DNA of 64,000 nucleotides from Candidatus Poribacteria bacterium (lineage in GTDB: Bacteria; Poribacteria; WGA-4E; WGA-3G): NCBI GenBank assembly GCA_007571305.1, contig RKRR01000131.1:1-64000 (forward strand). The letters are read 5' to 3'. Both the position numbers and the translations under genes were made by a program. The notes under the pieces are model-generated. The model had not been told where the DNA came from. It made no database searches and worked only from the letters and a program-made list of their open reading frames with translations. Positions 33,916 through 44,471 of the stretch are shown one piece after another. Numbering within the stretch: the first letter of the stretch is position 1; every line of letters starts with the position of its first letter.

Positions 33916-34168
33916 GTCTTACTCTCATGAGGATGACGCATTTTCACGGAAGTTTGGACAGACGTAGGTGTGATATGGGTTGCCAAGATGCAATATGCCA
34001 TCTCTCCGTGAAAAAACGAATGTGACAACAGAATTAACTCATGGCAAAATGACAATGGATTTGATCATCTAATTTTCTACCTGGTTTGATGTTTTGACTT
34101 GCTTTTTTAAAAAAATCTGTTATGATTTTAGCCTGTCCCTGAATGGCATGATAGAGAGAAGGAGACGT

Positions 34169-35901
34169 ATGGCGAATTATCAAGAACTGGCGAATCTGGT
34201 TTGGAATGTGGCGGATGATGTTCTCAGATGCCTGTTCAAACAGCATGAATACGGCGACATCACGCTCCCGTTTTTGGTGATGCGCCGATTGGACTGCATC
34301 TTGGACGAGAATGAACGAAAAGAGAAAGCCATCAATGCCTATAATCAGTTTAAGGACAAAGTGTCCGAAGATACCCTGCCTCCGATTATTCGCAGAGCGA
34401 TAAATACCAGTTTTTACAATACTTCACAGTACGATCTGTCGCGGCTGAAAGCCGACCCGAACAATATCCGCCTCAACTTTGAGAACTACCTCGCCGGATT
34501 CAGCAAAGATGTTCGGGACATCATCGAAAACTTCAACCTTGAGGGATTTATCGAACGGTTACACAAAAACAACCGCCTTTTCATTTTTTGTGATAAGTTC
34601 ACTGAAGTCGACCTCCACCCCAATAAAGTAGACAATCACACGATGGGGCAGATCTTTGAGGAGCTCCTGCGCCGATTCTCGGAGATGTCCAACGAAACCA
34701 GTGGTGAACACTACACGCCGCGGGATGTCGTGAGGTTGTTAGTGTCCTTGCTGTTTGCTGAGCACCGTGAAGATTTGCGCGGGCAGGGAGTTATCCGTAG
34801 TATCTTCGATCCGTGCTGTGGGACAGGTGGCATGCTGACGATTGGCAAGGAATACTTTCGTGAGCAGATTAATCCGGATGCCGATATTCGACTGTTGGGT
34901 CAGGAACTCAACGCGCAGACCTACGCGATTTGCAAGTCGGATATGCTTATCACTGGAGAGGAGCCCGACAATGTTCGGCATGGTTCCAGCCTCTCTGATG
35001 ACCAATTTCAAGGGCAACGTTTCGATTATATGATCACCAATCCCCCTTTCGGTGTCAGTTGGAAATCTGACGAAAGCGTTGTAAAAGCGGAAGCCCAAAC
35101 CGCCAATGGCAGGTTCTCAGCAGGAACGCCTCGAACTTCTGATGGATCGTTGTTATTCCTGCAACACATGCTATCTAAGATGGAGAACCGCGGCAGCCGC
35201 ATCGGAATTGTGTTTAATGGGTCGCCTCTCTTTACGGGTGATGCCGGGAGCGGTAAGAGTGAAATCCGACGCTGGATCATCGAAAAGGATTGATTGGAGT
35301 GCATTATCGCACTGCCTGAAAAGTTGTTCTTTAACACCAGTATCGCTACCTATATTTGGATATTAACCAATCGGAAATCAGAAGCACGACAAGGTAAAGT
35401 CCAATTGATCAATGCCGTTGACTTCTTTGAAAAGATGAAAAGGAATCTTGGGGACAAGAATGCTTTTATCTCCGAGAGTCATGTTCGTCAAATAATTGAA
35501 TTATATACCAACTTTGAAGAGACAGAATACGTCAGAATCTATCCAAACGATTTTTTCGGCTATACACCGTCGAGAGACCACTCATTGACGAAGAGACAGG
35601 AGATCTCGTCCGAGATACGAGAGGCAATCAGAAACCGAATACCCAGCTGCGAGATCAGGAACGGGTGCCGCTCACAGAAGATATTGATGATTACTACCAA
35701 CGCGAGGTGAAACCGCATCTGCCTGATAGTTGGATAGACAGAAAGAAGGATAAAGTGGGCTACGAAATCAACTTCAATAAGTATTTCTATCAGTATACGC
35801 CCCTGCGGTCCCTGAAGGAAATTTCGGACGAATTGTTGGCACTGGAGCGGAAAAGTAAAGGTGTGTTGAATGAGGTTTTGGCGGGTATAAGAGATTATTG
35901 A
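34169..35901 (+). pseudogene. hsdM: Type I restriction-modification methyltransferase HsdM, disrupted
   Basis: This is the N6-adenine methyltransferase subunit of a type I system, normally about 575 residues. The ATG at 34169 has a GAGAAGGAGA RBS. The N-terminal helical domain (LANLVWNVADDVLR), the SAM motif FDPCCGTGGML and the catalytic ITNPPFG (NPPF) are intact. The frame then meets TGA at 35291-35293, exactly where the family has Trp (D-W-LEC). The same frame resumes at 35294 (LECIIALPEKLFF). A second lesion near 35564 shifts the frame: about 7 bases are missing between FGY and TVERPL. The tail continues to 35901 (GYEINFNKYFYQYTPLR). Probably non-functional. Confidence 0.9.
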
Positions 35902-36046
35902 TGTGATGGTATACCATCAGGGATTCAGTTGTACAGGATTGCAGATTGAGTCTCAACTTAATTCGTATTCCAACATACTAATGTGTTAGAATTCAAGTTT
36001 AAGGGTTAACCCACCCAGCAGAGAATCTTGAATATGGAGATTGCGG

Positions 36047-36418
36047 ATGAATAACACGCCTAAACTGGCGGTAGACACATACCATACTTCAAGTGGGAAA
36101 GAGCCCTTCACGGAATGGTTGGATTCAATTAGAGATAAAACTACGCGAGGTAGAATTGAAAGGAGAATGGACCGAATAGAGAATGGGAATATAGGTGATT
36201 ATAGACGTTTGGGGACTAATATCTATAAGTTACGGCTTGATTTTGGTCCTGGTTCCCGTATCTACTTTAGCATCTATTTTGACGAATCAGATAGCATGAC
36301 CATTCTGCTTCTGTGTGCTGGTGATAAGTCATCACAAACAGGTGATATTGAACGTGCGAAAGAATATTCGTTGGATACTGAACAAAGATATAAGGGATAT
36401 AATGATGGAACGATTTAG
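36047..36418 (+). CDS. Type II toxin, RelE/HigB-like (phage Gp49-like, PF05973 type)
   Basis: A 123-residue toxin from the ATG at 36047, with GGAGA 6 bases upstream. The pattern KEPFTEWLDSIRDKTTRGRIERRMDRIENGNIGDYRRLG and IYKLRLDFGPGSRIYF...ILLLCAGDKSSQTGDIERAKEY fits the 'addiction module killer protein' branch of RelE/HigB ribosome-dependent mRNases. The last 16 bases overlap the next gene, the usual toxin-first order with a downstream antitoxin. It lies inside the hsd locus between hsdM and hsdS. Confidence 0.88.
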   Translation: MNNTPKLAVDTYHTSSGKEPFTEWLDSIRDKTTRGRIERRMDRIENGNIGDYRRLGTNIYKLRLDFGPGSRIYFSIYFDESDSMTILLLCAGDKSSQTGDIERAKEYSLDTEQRYKGYNDGTI

Positions 36419-37175
36419 AACATGGCATGAAATTTTAATGGAACGTCTTTCTGATCCAGAAGATGTTATCGGCTACCTTGAAGTTTCGCTTGAAGAATAT
36501 TTGGATGATGGCGACAAGGCATTTTTTCTTAAGGGAATAAAAAATGTAATAGAAGCACAAGGTGGGATACTTAGCGTTTCAGAACAAGTTGGCATTGATC
36601 CAAAATTTCTTTCAACCGTTGTGAACAATGAGGCCATGCCACCTTTTCACATCCTTAGTTCCATTTTTACATCTTTTGGAGCGGAGGCTTCCATTAATCT
36701 GCCACCGAAAATGGTATCTGAACACGTTATAACTGAAAGACAATTACAGAATATTAAATACTGGACAGGACTGTGTGAGCATTTAGACCGGCGAGACAGT
36801 CGGCTACAACGACCAACGGCTAATGCATCTTATTACCAAGATTTGCAGATTGGAATAAAAGGTTTTTCATTAAGAGCGAGACAGACTATTAAACATAAGG
36901 AAATCAGTGCTGCATTAGTCATGAGGGGTGCAAATGCGATAGGGCACTTTTACGCTTTAAGGGTGCAAGAAGAAGAGATTGAGGAAGACTTTGGTGACAA
37001 ATTGGAATGGTGGGCAAGGACAAAATCTGAGAAGCGCGTGGCTTTCAGGAATCAAGATGCGGATCCTACCGATGAGAACGATTGGCATAATCAACACAAA
37101 TGGTTGGTTGATATGCTTGAAAAATTCTATGCAGTATTTCATCCGCGGCTTGAGAAACTAAGTGTGGGGACTTAG
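36402..37175 (+). CDS. HigA-like antitoxin with long C-terminal extension
   Basis: A 257-residue protein that starts inside the toxin gene. Residues 1-95 match the antidote partner of HigB-type toxins: LMERLSDPEDVIGYLEVSLEEYLDDG then an XRE-like helix-turn-helix in GILSVSEQVGIDPKFLSTVVNNEAMPPFHILSSIFTSFG. Normal antitoxins stop there, at about 95-110 residues. Here about 155 more residues follow, helical and rich in Arg/Glu/Trp, with no motif I recognise. Two adjacent ATGs (36402, 36405) are possible starts. It may be a fusion to an effector or sensor domain. Confidence 0.82.
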   Translation: MMERFRTWHEILMERLSDPEDVIGYLEVSLEEYLDDGDKAFFLKGIKNVIEAQGGILSVSEQVGIDPKFLSTVVNNEAMPPFHILSSIFTSFGAEASINLPPKMVSEHVITERQLQNIKYWTGLCEHLDRRDSRLQRPTANASYYQDLQIGIKGFSLRARQTIKHKEISAALVMRGANAIGHFYALRVQEEEIEEDFGDKLEWWARTKSEKRVAFRNQDADPTDENDWHNQHKWLVDMLEKFYAVFHPRLEKLSVGT

Positions 37176-37478: not shown

Positions 37479-38168
37479 ATGTCTAAAAAACTTGATAAAC
37501 TGATAAATCAAGTTGTGACTAAGGGACTTGACCCGAATGTGGAAATGAAACCCTCAGGCGTGGAATGGATTGGGGAGATACCAGCGCATTGGAAAGTGAA
37601 ACACTTGAAATATGTTGCAAACATTAATATGGGACAATCTCCACCTTCTGAAGAATACAATAGCGATCAAGTTGGAACACCCTTCCTTCAGGGAAATGCC
37701 GAGTTTGGTTCACACCATCCTACACCGAAAATCTATTGTCCAACTGCAAAAAAATACGCGGCACCCGGAGATATTTTACTATCAGTCCGCGCACCTGTAG
37801 GAGCAATCAACATTGCAAATCAAGAATACGGGATTGGTCGTGGTCTCTGTGCAATACACCCTCAAACGAATCAACTTGAACACCGCTATGCTAAGTATTT
37901 ACTTGAGGTTGTCCGTCCTGAACTATATGCTGTTGCCACCGGAAGCACCTATGATGCTGTTACAGTAAATGAGGTTTCTAACATCACTTGTGTTGTGCCT
38001 CCATTTTCTGAACAAACGCAAATCGCCGACTTCCTGGACCGCAAAACCGAACAGATCGACAAATTGATCGACGCAGAACGGCGAAAGATTGAACTTCTCA
38101 AGGAATACCGGCAATCCCTCATCTCCGAAGCAGTGACCGGCAAGGTAGATGTCCGAAATGATGTATAG
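37479..38168 (+). CDS. hsdS: Type I restriction specificity subunit HsdS, half-length
   Basis: A 229-residue protein with one target-recognition domain, about half the usual 400-450. It starts directly in the segment LINQVVTKGLDPNVEMKPSGVEWIGEIPAHW, which in full HsdS lies in the middle, as the end of conserved region 1 and the start of TRD2. It then has one TRD (about residues 45-180) and the closing coiled coil and tail IADFLDRKTEQIDKL...LISEAVTGKVDVR. The RBS AGAAGGA is good. A half-HsdS can dimerise to recognise a palindrome in some systems, but its matching HsdM here is broken. Confidence 0.88.
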   Translation: MSKKLDKLINQVVTKGLDPNVEMKPSGVEWIGEIPAHWKVKHLKYVANINMGQSPPSEEYNSDQVGTPFLQGNAEFGSHHPTPKIYCPTAKKYAAPGDILLSVRAPVGAINIANQEYGIGRGLCAIHPQTNQLEHRYAKYLLEVVRPELYAVATGSTYDAVTVNEVSNITCVVPPFSEQTQIADFLDRKTEQIDKLIDAERRKIELLKEYRQSLISEAVTGKVDVRNDV

Positions 38169-38206: not shown

Positions 38207-38236
38207 TTGATTTTTCGGGATTTTCTATGCTATACT
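38207..38236 (+). promoter_or_regulatory. Promoter of the AAA-PIN operon
   Basis: The -35 is TTGATT at 38207-38212 and the -10 is TATACT at 38231-38236 (18-base spacer), about 58 bases before the ATPase start. The stretch from -35 to -10 closely resembles the promoter of the Rpn-family gene at 40104-40132. Confidence 0.6.
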
Positions 38237-38293
38237 TTACAAAACGTTTTTCTTTAAAGTTAACGACACAATGACGATTGTGGAGATGGCACC

Positions 38294-39637
38294 ATGAACA
38301 TTACCCAATTCACAATGGAAGATGTCCGCTGCTTCAGGGAACGGCAAACGCTTGAAATCCGCCCGCTCACTTTTTTGGTCGGTGAAAACAGCACCGGTAA
38401 AACGACAGCCTTGGCATGTTTCCAAGTATTAGCAAATTATTTGGGAGGCGAAAGGGTAGACTTTAATGCAGCCCCCTACTCAATGGGAATCTTTAAGGAT
38501 ATTGTCAGGAACAGTAGACCGAAAAAAGAGACTTTTAAACTGGGGTTTACCGCTGCGCCTATTGAATGGGTAATTGAAGTTTCCAAAAAAACACAGAGCA
38601 TGGAACCTACAATAAATTCGGTTCGTCTGAAAGGCTCTGATGGCGAAATTAATTTTAAAATTGTTAATTTCAAAATTGGAGGTGATACCGAGGAAAAACT
38701 AGCGTATTTAGCCTCATTTGATGGAACGCCAGCGCATTTAGCCTCTTTTAATGAAAACGACAATTACTATGAAATAAATTGTGCGCCTAACTTTTTAGAC
38801 ATGTTTCCGTTTTTCCACCTCTTACCTTTTCAACCCGATGTCTATTTGAGCGGCAGTGCTGAAGGGAAAAAGGCTTTGGCAAACTATGTGGAAACGTTCC
38901 GAAACCCGCAGACAAGTCGATACAACCTTTGGGGTATTGGGCCCTATCTATCTACATTTAGCACGTCTCCGATTCGCTCACGCCCTAAACGCACTTACGA
39001 TCCAACTCGAGAATTTAACGATCCGGAGGGAAGCGATGTGCCGATGCTGCTGCTGCGAATAAAAGAGACGCAGCGAAAGCAGTGGGAGGCACTCAAAACC
39101 CAGTTGATCGAATTCGGCAAGAGTTCTGGTTTATTTCAGAATATAGAAGTAAAGAACCTTGGGCGTTCTTTGGGGGCTCCGTTTCAACTCAAGTTTAAGG
39201 TGAGGGGCCCTAATGCCAATATTATTGATGTTGGGTATGGTGTGAGTCAAATTTTACCAATTTTGGTGCATGTTTTAGGTGTGCCCCCTGGTTTGCAAAA
39301 GGACACCTACTTCTTACTCCAACAGCCTGAGGTCCATCTGCATCCCAGAGCGCAGGCAGAATTGTCTTCCTTATTGACGACACTGGCAAGCCAAGAAAAC
39401 CGGGCCTTCATTATTGAAACGCATAGTGATTATATGATTGACCGCGCACGCATTGAGATCAGAAAGGGCAATATCTCTCCAGAAGATGTGTCTCTCATAT
39501 ATTTTGAGCCAAAGGGAAATAACGTCAGGGTACATAATATCCGTTTTGACGAAATGGCTAATATGATTGATGTCCCTCCGCATTACAGGCAATTTTTCCT
39601 GAAAGAGTCTGATCGACTGATGGGGTTTGAGGATTAA
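38294..39637 (+). CDS. AAA-type ATPase (AAA_15/21, DUF3696-like, OLD-related)
   Basis: A 447-residue SMC/OLD-like ATPase. The N-terminal ITQFTMEDVRCF...LTFLVGENSTGKTT gives Walker A at residues 30-38. A long middle insertion follows. Near 340-380 come LLQQPEVHLHP (Walker B region) and ETHSDYMIDR (D/H-loop). The first acidic Walker B position, usually Glu or Asp (EEPE/EQPE), is Gln here, while the second Glu is kept. Such ATPases act as sensors in several two-gene defence systems, each with a nuclease partner. The next gene, 4 bases downstream, is a PIN-like nuclease. Confidence 0.87.
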   Translation: MNITQFTMEDVRCFRERQTLEIRPLTFLVGENSTGKTTALACFQVLANYLGGERVDFNAAPYSMGIFKDIVRNSRPKKETFKLGFTAAPIEWVIEVSKKTQSMEPTINSVRLKGSDGEINFKIVNFKIGGDTEEKLAYLASFDGTPAHLASFNENDNYYEINCAPNFLDMFPFFHLLPFQPDVYLSGSAEGKKALANYVETFRNPQTSRYNLWGIGPYLSTFSTSPIRSRPKRTYDPTREFNDPEGSDVPMLLLRIKETQRKQWEALKTQLIEFGKSSGLFQNIEVKNLGRSLGAPFQLKFKVRGPNANIIDVGYGVSQILPILVHVLGVPPGLQKDTYFLLQQPEVHLHPRAQAELSSLLTTLASQENRAFIIETHSDYMIDRARIEIRKGNISPEDVSLIYFEPKGNNVRVHNIRFDEMANMIDVPPHYRQFFLKESDRLMGFED

Positions 39638-39641
39638 GTGA

Positions 39642-40064
39642 ATGTGTGTGATCTTAGATGCGAATACTTTCGGTAAATTTAGAGACCCAGACGATGAAGA
39701 TATGGAACCCGTCCGGAGATGGTTACAGAAAGGAAGCGGCAAAATCGTCTACACCAATACGGAAACATTTAAAGCTGAATGGGAGTTAGGAGGAATGAAA
39801 CATCGGAGAGATCAGATGATGCGGGCAGGTCAACTCAAATTGGTAGCTGAAGGTGTGCAGGAAAAGGCAGATGAATTAGAAGGTGAAATAGAATCAAACG
39901 ACGAACATATTATCGCGTTGGCTCTGATAGCCGATGTAAAAGTCTTGGTGTCCTATAAGGAAGGCGACAAAGATTTGTTCAAAGACTTTAAACATTTAGT
40001 TAGGGGCAAAGTCTATACAAGAAAAACGCAGAAACATCTGCTTACGAAAGACACTTGTCCTTAA
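39642..40064 (+). CDS. PIN-like domain nuclease
   Basis: A 140-residue PIN-like protein. MCVILDANTFG gives the first acidic residue D6. E46 or nearby in FKAEWELGG, D87 (SNDEHIIALA) and D109/D111 (YKEGDKDLFKDF) complete the expected acidic set, and the final strand is GKVYTRKTQKHLL. PIN domains cut RNA. It starts 4 bases after the AAA ATPase stop, so the two are translationally coupled. The pair is not a standard vapBC module and is treated here as a candidate ATPase-nuclease defence unit. Confidence 0.78.
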   Translation: MCVILDANTFGKFRDPDDEDMEPVRRWLQKGSGKIVYTNTETFKAEWELGGMKHRRDQMMRAGQLKLVAEGVQEKADELEGEIESNDEHIIALALIADVKVLVSYKEGDKDLFKDFKHLVRGKVYTRKTQKHLLTKDTCP

Positions 40065-40103: not shown

Positions 40104-40132
40104 TTGACTTTTCGGTATTGCTACGCTATACT
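40104..40132 (+). promoter_or_regulatory. Promoter of the Rpn-family gene
   Basis: The -35 is TTGACT at 40104-40109 and the -10 is TATACT at 40127-40132 (17-base spacer). It lies 36 bases before the preferred ATG at 40169 and shares the motif TTTTCGG...GCTATACTT with the AAA-PIN promoter. Confidence 0.6.
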
Positions 40133-40168
40133 TCTCAAAAATTTTTAACTATCGAAAAATATGCATCC

Positions 40169-41260
40169 ATGCACGAAACACGAGAGACCCGCATAGAACA
40201 CTTCCCAGACCGGAGCCTCAGACAGCTCCTTCAAGACAGGGAATATGTGCGCGGGTTAGTCCAAATCGTTGCTCCTGAAATAGCGGGATTTCTCGATTTC
40301 AGCGGTATCACATATCAGAAAAGAAGCTTTATCTCTCAGGCACTCCAGGAACGAGAGTCAGATGTCCTGCTCCGTATTCCCTTTCAAGAAGAAACAGATG
40401 CTACAGATGCCGGGTCACTCCTCATCTATATCCTCATTGAACATCAATCCACAGTGGATAAAACGATGGGGTTTCGCTTGTTATCTTACATGGTGCACAT
40501 CTGGGAGTCGCAACGGCGGGAATGGGAGACGGCGAAGGTGCCAGAAAATGAAAGACGTTTACAACCGATTCTCCCAATCCTGCTTTATACGGGTGAGCGT
40601 CCGTGGAGCGTTCCGGTGTCCGTTGCGACGCTCATGGATGTTCCTGAAATGTTGGAGCGTTTCGTTCCAAGTTTCGACACCCTGTTTTTAGGTGTCAAGG
40701 CGGCTCCATCAGAGGCGTTAACACAGTCCGGTCATCCGTTAGGGTGGTTGCTGCGGGTTCTTCAGAAGGAGCATTCGGATGAGTCGGAGCTCAGCGAAGC
40801 TTTAGCAGAAGCCGTATTGCATTTAGGGGCGATAGATAAAGCCTTTGCTCCACAGGTATCGGAGGCATTTCGGTATTTCGTGCGGTTGATATTCCATAGG
40901 CGTTCCGTTGAGGAGCGCGATGGGTTAGTAGATATTATCAGAGTTCGTATTCAAGACGATAAGGAGTTAGATGCCATGGCACAGACGACGGCTGAGTATC
41001 TCATAGAGCAAGGTATCCAACGCGGTATTGAACAAGGAAAAGCGGAAGGAAAAGCAGAAGGGAAGGCAGAAGGGAAACAGGATGCAGTCCTGAAACTCCT
41101 ACACTTCCGATTTCAGACCGTGCCAGAAGTGCTCTCCCGTGAAATCAGAAACATCCAGAATCTACCGCTTCTTGATACCCTCTTAGAGCAAACAATGACC
41201 GCGCAAAGTTTAGAAGAGATAGATACTTATCTTTCTTTTAAGCCAACCGCAAACGATTGA
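40169..41260 (+). CDS. Rpn family recombination-promoting nuclease / putative transposase-like protein
   Basis: A 363-residue protein of the Rpn/YhgA-like PD-(D/E)XK group. LLRIPFQEETDATDAGSLLIYILIEHQSTVDKTMGFRLLSYMVHIWE carries the expected E...hhhEHQS catalytic strand of this family. A helical middle and a low-complexity EGKAEGKAEGK repeat (encoded by near-identical 12-base units around 41035-41078) come before the C-terminus. The ATG at 40169 is preferred because the promoter at 40104-40132 lies inside any longer reading. Rpn proteins cut DNA and are often spread with repeats and defence genes. Confidence 0.82.
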   Translation: MHETRETRIEHFPDRSLRQLLQDREYVRGLVQIVAPEIAGFLDFSGITYQKRSFISQALQERESDVLLRIPFQEETDATDAGSLLIYILIEHQSTVDKTMGFRLLSYMVHIWESQRREWETAKVPENERRLQPILPILLYTGERPWSVPVSVATLMDVPEMLERFVPSFDTLFLGVKAAPSEALTQSGHPLGWLLRVLQKEHSDESELSEALAEAVLHLGAIDKAFAPQVSEAFRYFVRLIFHRRSVEERDGLVDIIRVRIQDDKELDAMAQTTAEYLIEQGIQRGIEQGKAEGKAEGKAEGKQDAVLKLLHFRFQTVPEVLSREIRNIQNLPLLDTLLEQTMTAQSLEEIDTYLSFKPTAND

Positions 41261-41507: not shown

Positions 41508-44471
41508 GTGCCAACCTATACAGAACAAAATTTTGAGGAACATATAGAACACCACTTGAATCAGTCTGGCTATCAGTCGTTGCAACCTGCTAACTATGAT
41601 AAATCCTTCTGCCTGATACCCGATGAGGTCTTGCAGTTTATTCAGGTCACACAGCCTGAAATGCATCAGCGGCTGGAACGCCAATACGGCGCGCGGACAC
41701 CCGTTAAACTCCTTGAACGTGTCAGCAGAACAGTACAAAATCGCGGAGTGCTGGACGTATTACGGAACGGCTTTAAAGATAGAGGGTGCTACTTTCACCT
41801 GACCTACTTCCAACCTGCAAGCGGGATGAATCCTGACCATCAATGGCTCTACGCACAGAGTCGATTCTCCCTCATTTGGCAGTTGAAGTATTCACAGAAG
41901 AACGAAAAATCGGTGGATATGACGTTGTTCCTCAACGGTCTGCCACTGGTGACAATGGAGCTCAAGAACAGCCTCACTGGGCAGACGGTGACGGATGCGG
42001 AGAAACAGTATCGGAAGGATCGGGATCCGAGAGAGCCGTTGTTCCAATTCAGGCGGTGCCTGGTTCACTTTGCCGTTGGAAACGAGAAGGTTTCCATGAC
42101 GACTCAGTTACAAGGGAACGGGACCCGTTTCTTTTCATTTAACAAGGGCATCGAAAACCCGGTGAACCCGAAGGGGCACAAGACCGCCTATTTGTGGGAG
42201 GACATCCTACATCCCGATAACCTCATGGAACTCATCAATAACTTTATCCACGAGCAAGAGACCACAGAAAAGGCCTACGATCCCAAAATTGAGGCGGTAA
42301 GAGATGTAAAACACCGTGTCCTCGTTTTTCCGCGATACCATCAACTTGATGTCATTCGTCAATTGAAAGCGGCTATTGTCGAGGAGGGTGTCGGACATAG
42401 ATACCTTATCCAACATACCACCGGGAGCGGGAAGTCAAACTCCATCGCCTGGCTTGCACATCTACTCACACATCTGTACCGTTCTCCAACCGATATACAT
42501 CGAGTCTTCGACTCCATTATCGTCGTAACGGATCGGCGGGTGCTTGACAAGCAGCTGCAGGACACAATCAAGCAGATGGAACAGGTCGAGGGTGTGGTAC
42601 ATGCCGTCGATCAGACTTCAGCCCAACTCAGACATTTCCTTGAAAGAAGCAAAGACATCATCATCTCAACGATTCAGAAGTTCAGTGTGATTGCCGAGGA
42701 GATTGGCAAACTTAAAAGCAAGACCTTCGCCGTGATTGTTGATGAGGCACACTCCTCACAGAGCGGTGAATCTGCAAAGAATCTCAGGGTTTCGCTCTCG
42801 CAAGGGATTGCGTTAGACGGAACAGAAGATGATGCAGCGGAAGCATCGGATATAGATACTCGGATTATTGAGCAGATGGAACAGCAGAGAATGCAGGCGC
42901 ATATCTCCTATTTTGGTTTCAGCGGCACACCGAAAAACAAGACCTTAGAACTCTTCGGACGAAAGGACGATCAAGGAAAATTCGTCCCCTTCCACGTCTA
43001 TTCCATGCGTCAGAGCATCAACGAAGGTTGGACACTGGACGTGCTGCAAAACTACACTACCTTTAAGCGGTATTTCCAACTCGTCAAAAGTGTGCCGGAG
43101 GATAAGGCGTACGAGAAGGCGCGGACGCTACGGACACTGACCAATTACGTTGACCTACAACATCACAGCATTGAGACCAAAACTCGGATTATCTTGGAAC
43201 ATTTCACCGATAGGACCGCAAAGACGATTGAGGGGCAGGGACGGGCGATGCTGGTCACGCCGTCGAGGCTGCACTGCGTTCGGTACAAGCAGGAGTTTGA
43301 TCGGCAGATGCCGGAAATGGGGCTTTCCTACGGGTGTCTGGTCGCGTTCAGCGGCACCGTTCACGATAGAGATAACGCTCAGGATTACACGGAAAATGGG
43401 ATGAATGCGTTGCCACCGGGCGTTTCAATTGCGGACAGCTTCAAAAACCCTGAGTACCGTATTCTGATCGTTGCCAATAAGTTCCAGACGGGTTTCGATG
43501 AGCCGCTCCTACAGACGATGTACGTCGATAAGCAATTGGACGGCCTGCAATGTGTCCAGACTTTGAGCCGTCTGAACTGCGTCACCACCGGTAAAACCGA
43601 TGCGTTGGTGCTTGACTTCGTGAACGAACCTGAGCAGGTGCAGGAGGCCTTCCAACAATACTATCAGACCACGATGCTCGCGGAGGAGACCGATCCGAAT
43701 CGGTTGTATGACCTCCAGCACGAACTGATGGGGTTTGACCTCTACGATGTGGATACCGTTGACAAATTCTGCCGGACCTTTTATATTCCCAATCAATCGG
43801 TTGAATTGCTACAAGGTATCCTCGATACCGTGCTTGCGAAGTGGTCAACACTTGAGACGAATGATCGGGAAGAATTCCGTTCTACCTTACAAAGTTATAT
43901 TCGCTTCTACGGATACATCTCACAGTTGATTACCTTCACCGATATAGCATTAGAAAAGTTATATGTCTTCGTGCGCAGCCTCAACAAGAAGCTGCCGAAA
44001 CGGGATCACCCTGATGGACAAGAGGTTCTCGAGGCTGTGGACTTGGATTCGTTTCGTGTGCAGAAAACGCATGAGAGTCTACAACTCTCCCTTGAAGCAC
44101 AGGATAGCGAGGTCGAAGGGATCGGCAGCAATGTCGCTATCATTCGGGATTCTGAGCAGGCTTTCCTCTCTAATATCATTCAAGCGTTGAACGATGCCTA
44201 TCAGACAGATTTTACAATGGAAGATAAAGTTGACATTGAGGGGATTTACGAGAAAGTTCGTCAGCATGAAGAGCTGCGGCAGGTGATTGATGGAGATAAT
44301 ACGGAGACCAACAAAAGGTATAAGTTCGATCGGGTGATTGATGACCTTTTATTCCATTTCGTTAATTGCAAGTTGGAACTTTATACGAAGTTATCCAAGC
44401 CAGAGATTAATGCCGACCTCAAGCAACGTCTCTATCGAGCCTATCTGACGCAACTGTCCCCTGCTGTGTGA
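41508..44471 (+). CDS. hsdR: Type I restriction endonuclease subunit R (HsdR)
   Basis: A full-length HsdR of 987 residues, the DNA-translocating and cutting subunit. The N-terminal nuclease region includes LPLVTMELKNSLTG (PD-(D/E)XK E-x-K). The SF2 motor follows with Walker A TTGSGKSNS (about residue 305), the DEAH box VIVDEAHSSQ (about 410), the SAT-like motif FSGTP and motif VI NKFQTGFDEP. A C-terminal helical domain ends the protein. The start is GTG with no clear RBS; a possible promoter ends only 14 bases upstream. It looks intact although hsdM is broken and hsdS is half-size. Confidence 0.95.
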   Translation: MPTYTEQNFEEHIEHHLNQSGYQSLQPANYDKSFCLIPDEVLQFIQVTQPEMHQRLERQYGARTPVKLLERVSRTVQNRGVLDVLRNGFKDRGCYFHLTYFQPASGMNPDHQWLYAQSRFSLIWQLKYSQKNEKSVDMTLFLNGLPLVTMELKNSLTGQTVTDAEKQYRKDRDPREPLFQFRRCLVHFAVGNEKVSMTTQLQGNGTRFFSFNKGIENPVNPKGHKTAYLWEDILHPDNLMELINNFIHEQETTEKAYDPKIEAVRDVKHRVLVFPRYHQLDVIRQLKAAIVEEGVGHRYLIQHTTGSGKSNSIAWLAHLLTHLYRSPTDIHRVFDSIIVVTDRRVLDKQLQDTIKQMEQVEGVVHAVDQTSAQLRHFLERSKDIIISTIQKFSVIAEEIGKLKSKTFAVIVDEAHSSQSGESAKNLRVSLSQGIALDGTEDDAAEASDIDTRIIEQMEQQRMQAHISYFGFSGTPKNKTLELFGRKDDQGKFVPFHVYSMRQSINEGWTLDVLQNYTTFKRYFQLVKSVPEDKAYEKARTLRTLTNYVDLQHHSIETKTRIILEHFTDRTAKTIEGQGRAMLVTPSRLHCVRYKQEFDRQMPEMGLSYGCLVAFSGTVHDRDNAQDYTENGMNALPPGVSIADSFKNPEYRILIVANKFQTGFDEPLLQTMYVDKQLDGLQCVQTLSRLNCVTTGKTDALVLDFVNEPEQVQEAFQQYYQTTMLAEETDPNRLYDLQHELMGFDLYDVDTVDKFCRTFYIPNQSVELLQGILDTVLAKWSTLETNDREEFRSTLQSYIRFYGYISQLITFTDIALEKLYVFVRSLNKKLPKRDHPDGQEVLEAVDLDSFRVQKTHESLQLSLEAQDSEVEGIGSNVAIIRDSEQAFLSNIIQALNDAYQTDFTMEDKVDIEGIYEKVRQHEELRQVIDGDNTETNKRYKFDRVIDDLLFHFVNCKLELYTKLSKPEINADLKQRLYRAYLTQLSPAV

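Follow-up and report, generated by a model that had tools for sequence, protein, structure and literature searches.

An OLD-like ABC ATPase and a PIN-domain protein form a mobile two-gene unit in Poribacteria and other bacterial phyla

A gene for an OLD/Rad50-type ABC ATPase and a gene for a PIN-domain protein that lie side by side in a Candidatus Poribacteria genome form a single, obligately paired unit; the pairing is not due to chance, because the same two-gene unit recurs in every relative found. The copy described here lies in the window, a stretch of 64,000 nucleotides (contig RKRR01000131.1 of GenBank assembly GCA_007571305.1), and is the only one in its 4.8-Mb genome. The pair is horizontally mobile and spread across phyla, and our analysis suggests that it is probably a conflict module, putatively a PARIS-like abortive-infection phage defense in which a PIN nuclease replaces TOPRIM.

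Results

After removal of duplicates, our non-redundant set held 78 intact pairs, drawn from nine phyla and one viral contig, and in every one of them the PIN gene lies immediately downstream of the ATPase gene, at most 41 bases from the ATPase match. The ATPase is directly upstream on the same strand in 30 of 30 Poribacteria loci and in 54 of 54 loci of a search of genome contigs, and each strong PIN match in four wider group surveys had the ATPase directly upstream, with none lacking it. Weak PIN matches in other phyla (E of about 1e-4), which were left out of the pair counts, proved to be ordinary PIN proteins with no such ATPase and serve as a negative control. The distances of the two proteins are correlated across the 78 pairs (r = 0.92; 0 of 999 permutations); within Poribacteria the correlation is 0.51 and some reshuffling is visible, as at locus L033, where the ATPase is 75% and the PIN protein 54% identical to that of the window. 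The concern raised in a first-pass annotation of this DNA, that co-occurrence might not extend beyond close relatives, is thus not borne out.

That annotation had described the window pair as two open reading frames (ORFs) separated by 4 bases, with their own promoter, nested between hsdS and hsdR of a type I restriction locus (Table 1). The coordinates and spacing are as claimed (the gap reads gtga) and the position is right, but the same interval also holds an Rpn-like ORF, and the hsdS-like ORF, at half length, covers only positions 207 to 440 of the PADLOC Specificity_I profile. The locus looks degenerate and apparently non-functional, because an in-frame stop interrupts hsdM and its frame is then lost, though hsdR remains open over 987 codons. 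The claim of a dedicated promoter is unproven: a promoter-like sequence is present, but the region has 8 such matches, no excess over the 7.4 ± 2.7 expected from shuffled sequence. Immediately upstream of the Shine-Dalgarno sequence there is an inverted repeat of six pairs, in which cells changed on both sides number 8 versus 2.7 in shuffles (1 in 500) and the covariation score is 0.286 versus 0.203 in shuffles (1 in 500); it is possibly an operator or an RNA hairpin.

Table 1. Features of the pair and the surrounding restriction locus, in window positions
Feature	Position	Strand	Length	Remarks
hsdM, interrupted	34166..35710	+		In-frame stop ~375 codons in; no open frame beyond 35710
hsdS-like ORF	37479..38168	+		Half length, one specificity domain; Pfam Methylase_S 1e-15
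Promoter-like TTGATT-18-TATACT	38207..38236	+		Matches of this kind no more frequent than by chance
Inverted repeat CACAAT-GACG-ATTGTG	38267..38282	+		Immediately 5' of Shine-Dalgarno GGAG; in Poribacteria copies
OLD/Rad50-type ABC ATPase gene, first of pair	38294..39637	+	447 aa	Conserved in 78/78 pairs
Walker A GENSTGKT, residues 30-37, with Lys36	38381..38404	+		G30, S33, G35 and K36 invariant (78/78)
Hypervariable ATPase middle, residues ~121-220	38654..38953	+		Candidate sensor region
ABC-signature-like VGYGVSQ, residues 313-319	39230..39250	+		Both Gly in 78/78
Walker B LLQQPE, residues 341-346	39314..39331	+		Both canonical acids Gln; Glu346 retained
PIN-domain gene, second of pair	39642..40064	+	140 aa	Candidate RNase effector
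Transposase_31 (YhgA/Rpn-like) ORF	40109..41260	+		Pfam 1e-28; between pair and hsdR, not a pair member
hsdR	41508..44471	+	987 aa	Pfam HSDR_N, SWI2_SNF2, T1R_D3-like

Other small genes are embedded in the same locus. Between hsdM and hsdS, upstream of the pair, positions 36041 to 37175 hold a RelE/HigB-like ORF (recognized by eye and without a Pfam match) and code for a protein with HI1420-type antidote and DUF4268 domains; together these resemble another embedded toxin-antitoxin-like pair. The Rpn/YhgA-like gene has a promoter-like box similar to the one before the pair. A promoter box common to both was considered and rejected, as the likeness was by eye and the box was not seen upstream of other copies.

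The first protein was called an OLD/AAA_15-like ATPase in the first-pass annotation, and this agrees with its Pfam matches (AAA_15, 2e-19; AAA_21, 4e-17) and with profile searches that found the OLD protein TsOLD (6p74; best match, 3.5e-15), PtuA, and GajA, while a structure model matched the heads of Rad50, SMC, and PtuA. The Walker A (GxxSxGK), signature glycines, and H-loop of an OLD-type ABC ATPase are all intact, but the acidic Walker B is not. A glutamine in place of the first Walker B acid (LLQQPEVHLHP) had been pointed out before and is real, with QQPE in 77 of 78 pairs; it had been overlooked that the second acid is likewise glutamine. Across the pairs, Q343 is conserved in 77 of 78 and Q344, P345, and E346 in all 78. 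Because the canonical acidic residues are gone in nearly the whole family, we regard the protein, from its sequence, as a diverged relative that keeps an OLD-like core. By analogy with classical E-to-Q mutants of ABC proteins, ATP hydrolysis may be lost or slow. A Pfam scan found no TOPRIM domain in the ATPase, whose C terminus lies some 70 residues past the H-loop, and conservation per 20 residues falls to 0.12 to 0.48 across residues ~121 to 220, compared with mostly 0.7 to 0.99 elsewhere.

The second protein had been described as PIN-like, and it is a genuine PIN domain, an assignment that is solid for the family and weak for the single sequence. Alone, the window protein matches Pfam PIN at an E value of 0.052, below the cut-off, while among 24 relatives PIN was recovered in 9 (best, 1.1e-8), DUF4411 in 3, and PIN_3 in 1. 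An AlphaFold (AF2) model of high confidence (pLDDT 90.9, pTM 0.84) has VapC2, VapC4, FitB, and other VapC proteins as its best solved neighbors in Foldseek (probability 0.92 to 0.99, TM score 0.45 to 0.62, best E value 6.6e-3). Family profile and fold search thus both give PIN, which answers the earlier doubt as to whether the protein has this fold. Four acidic residues, D6 (77 of 78 pairs), E46 (78 of 78), D87 (78 of 78), and D109 (77 of 78), fit the four PIN acids, so that both hallmarks of the superfamily, the fold and the conserved catalytic acids, are found; the PIN of genome G034 carries D6G. The protein is therefore a candidate nuclease, predicted to be metal dependent from its family. 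The family also has a cysteine at position 2 (window 39645; 78 of 78) and another near the C terminus, Cys139 (window 40056; 72 of 78), possibly forming a disulfide, a metal site, or a contact with the ATPase.

The relatives of the window's genome belong to Candidatus Poribacteria, and judging by what is known of this phylum many are probably MAGs from sponges. Among 85 of its genomes, the PIN gene was found in 50 and the ATPase gene in 53, in the same genomes except for three with the ATPase only, two of which hold fragments and one a weak match. Counting strong matches only and including the seed genome of each group, the pair is present in about 1 to 2% of genomes elsewhere: 5 of 369 Gammaproteobacteria (class of L111), 6 of 395 Bacteroidota (phylum of L122), 3 of 247 Acidobacteriota (phylum of L119), and 4 of 251 Chloroflexota (phylum of L101). 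The tree of the pair does not follow phyla, at least six changes being forced for Bacteroidota, four for Gammaproteobacteria, and three for Acidobacteriota (starred branches). In one Poribacteria genus the pair usually adjoins a gene for a thiamine pyrophosphate (TPP) enzyme, and it is missing in about a quarter of the genomes of this genus, some of them near-complete. The genus-typical site is empty in the window's own genome, where homology to the flanks stops by 10631 and restarts at 10761 of L184. The pair also diverges faster than its surroundings, with a median identity of 67% for each pair protein versus 93% for the flanking TPP enzyme.

Two viral contigs carry the pair. In L125 it lies between portal-like and terminase-like genes (named by eye) on the strand opposite to both, and L202 (42 kb) holds a second viral copy. 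A broad PIN profile had no match among the viral contigs, and L125 was found with a narrower one. Plasmids and GenBank phages searched with the window and L118 proteins gave no PIN match, and the ATPase matches there were all distant, either DUF3696-type proteins or other AAA ATPases. The ATPases of viral contigs L204 to L208 were considered as family members and rejected as a sister family with an IEQPE Walker B and a different partner; these contigs encode another two-gene module, in which an ATPase of ~530 amino acids is followed by a partner of 350 to 360 amino acids.

The neighborhoods of the pair only partly bear out a link to defense. Most Poribacteria copies have metabolic neighbors, including the TPP enzyme, phytanoyl-CoA dioxygenase, lipoate ligase, and cupin, though in two Poribacteria of another family (L067 and L038) an HsdS-like protein is encoded upstream. 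Six loci from Rhodothermota, Bacteroidota, and one gammaproteobacterium (L118, L120, L122, L186, L188, and L189) have the pair nested between HmaB and HmaC, sometimes in two tandem copies; in L118 the Hma genes were identified by profile scores (DUF1156 methylase HmaB, 2.5e-104; DUF499 ATPase HmaC, 6e-91; upstream helicase HmaA, 4e-91), and in the other five by closely similar protein starts. The tandem copies of L120 and L189 are nearly identical in the two genomes, which came from different sampled groups. The pair adjoins type III mod-res genes in L113 and AbiEi/AbiEii in L199, and the remaining loci, from Chloroflexota, Latescibacteria, and Caldilineaceae, have no obvious defense genes nearby.

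Where the pair decays, the PIN gene goes first: six copies have lesions in the PIN gene only, none in the ATPase gene only, and two in both. The PIN-only lesions are a stop (G046), a frameshift (G057), a missing 5' part (G083), an insertion (L112), stops and shifts (L155), and the exchange of the C-terminal half for an apparent RelB/RelE-type cassette (G028); both genes are damaged in G030 (the same copy as L124, with a stop in the ATPase) and in G036. Six of six single-gene lesions in PIN would have a probability of ~2e-4 if lesions scaled with gene length, the ATPase making up 76% of the pair, a count possibly inflated because frameshifts in MAGs may be assembly errors. The pattern is that of an effector costly to the cell, suggesting self-toxicity of PIN, with a partner harmless alone or needed as restraint. 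In the G028 copy (L040), what stands in place of the C-terminal half looks like the tail of a RelB antitoxin and, after it, a frame resembling RelE.

Discussion

A 2026 study (PMC12839542) reports 594 taxa with OLD-ABC ATPases that lie in BREX loci, in BREX-related (DUF499, "Hma") loci, or next to either, and that are paired with HNH, PD-(D/E)XK, or PIN nucleases that replace TOPRIM, and notes that such couplings had been reported earlier in ABC-ATPase-anchored systems (citing Krishnan et al. 2020). Those OLD-ABC/PIN dyads resemble the present pair in that a separate PIN gene accompanies an OLD-type ABC ATPase in a restriction-modification (R-M)-like locus, and that study counts among its BREX-related systems the DUF499/DUF1156 (Hma) type, where the pair occurs here. 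An adjacent OLD-ABC ATPase and PIN gene within or beside an R-M-like locus is what our Hma loci contain, as does the window by position. The dyads are described there for BREX and related loci only, whereas most copies here lie outside such loci, and the main text of that study is without residue-level description or test. The first-pass annotation had held that a PIN effector would be an arrangement other than the TOPRIM pairs, and the partner is indeed PIN in all pairs. The novelty of the pairing was overstated, because PMC12839542 already lists OLD-ABC ATPases with PIN endoRNases in or beside R-M-like loci. In the literature searched we found no description of the QQPE/PIN family defined here, of how frequent it is in Poribacteria, or of the way it decays, and no experimental test of the OLD-ABC/PIN pairing.

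Other known systems share parts of this make-up. In PARIS, AriA senses Ocr and then activates the nuclease AriB, as related in PMC12839542; the likeness lies in two genes for an OLD-type ABC ATPase and a nuclease, and the AriA profile matches our ATPase at 7e-21, but here the effector is PIN and not an AriB-type TOPRIM, and Walker B is QQPE. Gabija and class 1 OLD share the ATPase core, as the best sequence match to TsOLD illustrates, but their Walker B is EEPE in OLD and GajA, and the pair has neither TOPRIM nor a GajB helicase. The PtuA-PtuB genes of Septu and retron Ec78 likewise join an ABC ATPase to a small nuclease encoded by a second gene, and retron PtuA (Walker B DQIE) has glutamine at the second acid like our ATPase; the first acid is kept in PtuA, however, and PtuB is an HNH and not a PIN nuclease. 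The viral sister family has EQPE where the pair has QQPE. The PADLOC models NsnB, PDC-M55A, and HEC-03B were the top ATPase models in 20 of 20 members scanned, but are only distant ones with moderate scores (best, 7.5e-52), and none of the PADLOC models recognizes the PIN family well; PDC-M55B (315 positions), tried as the PIN counterpart, had no match in the window's own genome, in relatives, or in controls. Our search found no literature on NsnA/NsnB or PDC-M55. Validated PIN defense systems of other make-up exist (DS-3 and DS-5; PMC13092281), and defense genes embedded in R-M operons are known from TgvAB (PMC11411939) and DarTG2 (PMC12255303).

Obligate pairing, intact PIN acids, carriage on viral contigs, nesting in restriction operons, and PIN-first decay all support a conflict module. 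Against a role in defense, the pair in most Poribacteria occurs once per genome, is carried by more than half of the genomes of the main genera, and has metabolic neighbors, an unusual setting for a defense gene; no copies were found on the plasmids or GenBank phages searched. PIN-only decay, moreover, would be just as likely in a toxin-antitoxin system, and the pair could instead be a plain addiction module that needs no phage pressure, with a VapC-like PIN toxin and the ATPase as an unusual antitoxin. Such a module would account for the loss of PIN ahead of the ATPase, for VapC and FitB as nearest folds, and for insertions among many non-defense genes, and the small inverted repeat ahead of the ATPase gene could allow the module to regulate itself. 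VapBC indeed shares the PIN fold and catalytic acids, but in all pairs the partner is an ABC ATPase encoded upstream, of 447 amino acids in the window and with no recognized DNA-binding antitoxin domain, rather than a small DNA-binding antitoxin; nesting in Hma and restriction operons and the hypervariable middle are also better explained by phage sensing. We consider an addiction module unlikely, though the likeliest of the alternatives.

That most genomes of the main Poribacteria genera hold a single copy, and that in one genus this copy has a conserved site next to metabolic genes such as those for the TPP enzyme and cupin, could also point to a housekeeping module for RNA or DNA processing that Poribacteria have domesticated and that acts in conflict elsewhere. 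The absence of the pair from around a quarter of same-genus genomes, some near-complete, the empty site in the window genome, divergence much faster than that of the flanks, and repeated pseudogenes make this rather improbable. Least probable by our estimate is direct, non-abortive restriction, in which a Rad50-like ATPase loads PIN to cut invading or structured DNA: the fold matches to the Rad50, SMC, and PtuA heads, which act on DNA, and the copies in R-M operons are in keeping with it, but for single-domain PINs as small as this one the best matches are VapC RNases, and PIN-first decay suggests self-toxicity.

If the pair is an abortive-infection defense, as we favor, the ATPase would bind ATP and hydrolyze it slowly or not at all, and the ATP-bound assembly would keep PIN inactive. 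The hypervariable middle region would sense a product of the phage, which might be an inhibitor of host restriction; given the nesting in restriction operons, anti-restriction proteins are a plausible trigger for some copies. PIN would then be freed, activated, or dimerized and would cut RNA, with tRNA the likeliest target for a VapC-like PIN judging from what is known of VapC, and growth would stop before the phage cycle completes. More tentatively, and with doubts of our own, the pair may represent a distinct conflict class, in which the double-Gln QQPE ATPase is an ATP-binding, non-hydrolyzing latch on a PIN RNase, found in at least nine phyla and, away from any defense island, common among the Poribacteria that live in sponges, with phage sensed via the hypervariable center.

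A pairing that so far amounted to one line in the literature found is now a sharply defined, testable family of two genes, marked by QQPE and PIN. The loss of both Walker B acids family-wide, with Walker A intact, raises the question of ATP binding versus hydrolysis as the signal. For the uncultured sponge symbionts among the Poribacteria the module is common equipment, placed mostly outside the defense islands where current tools look.
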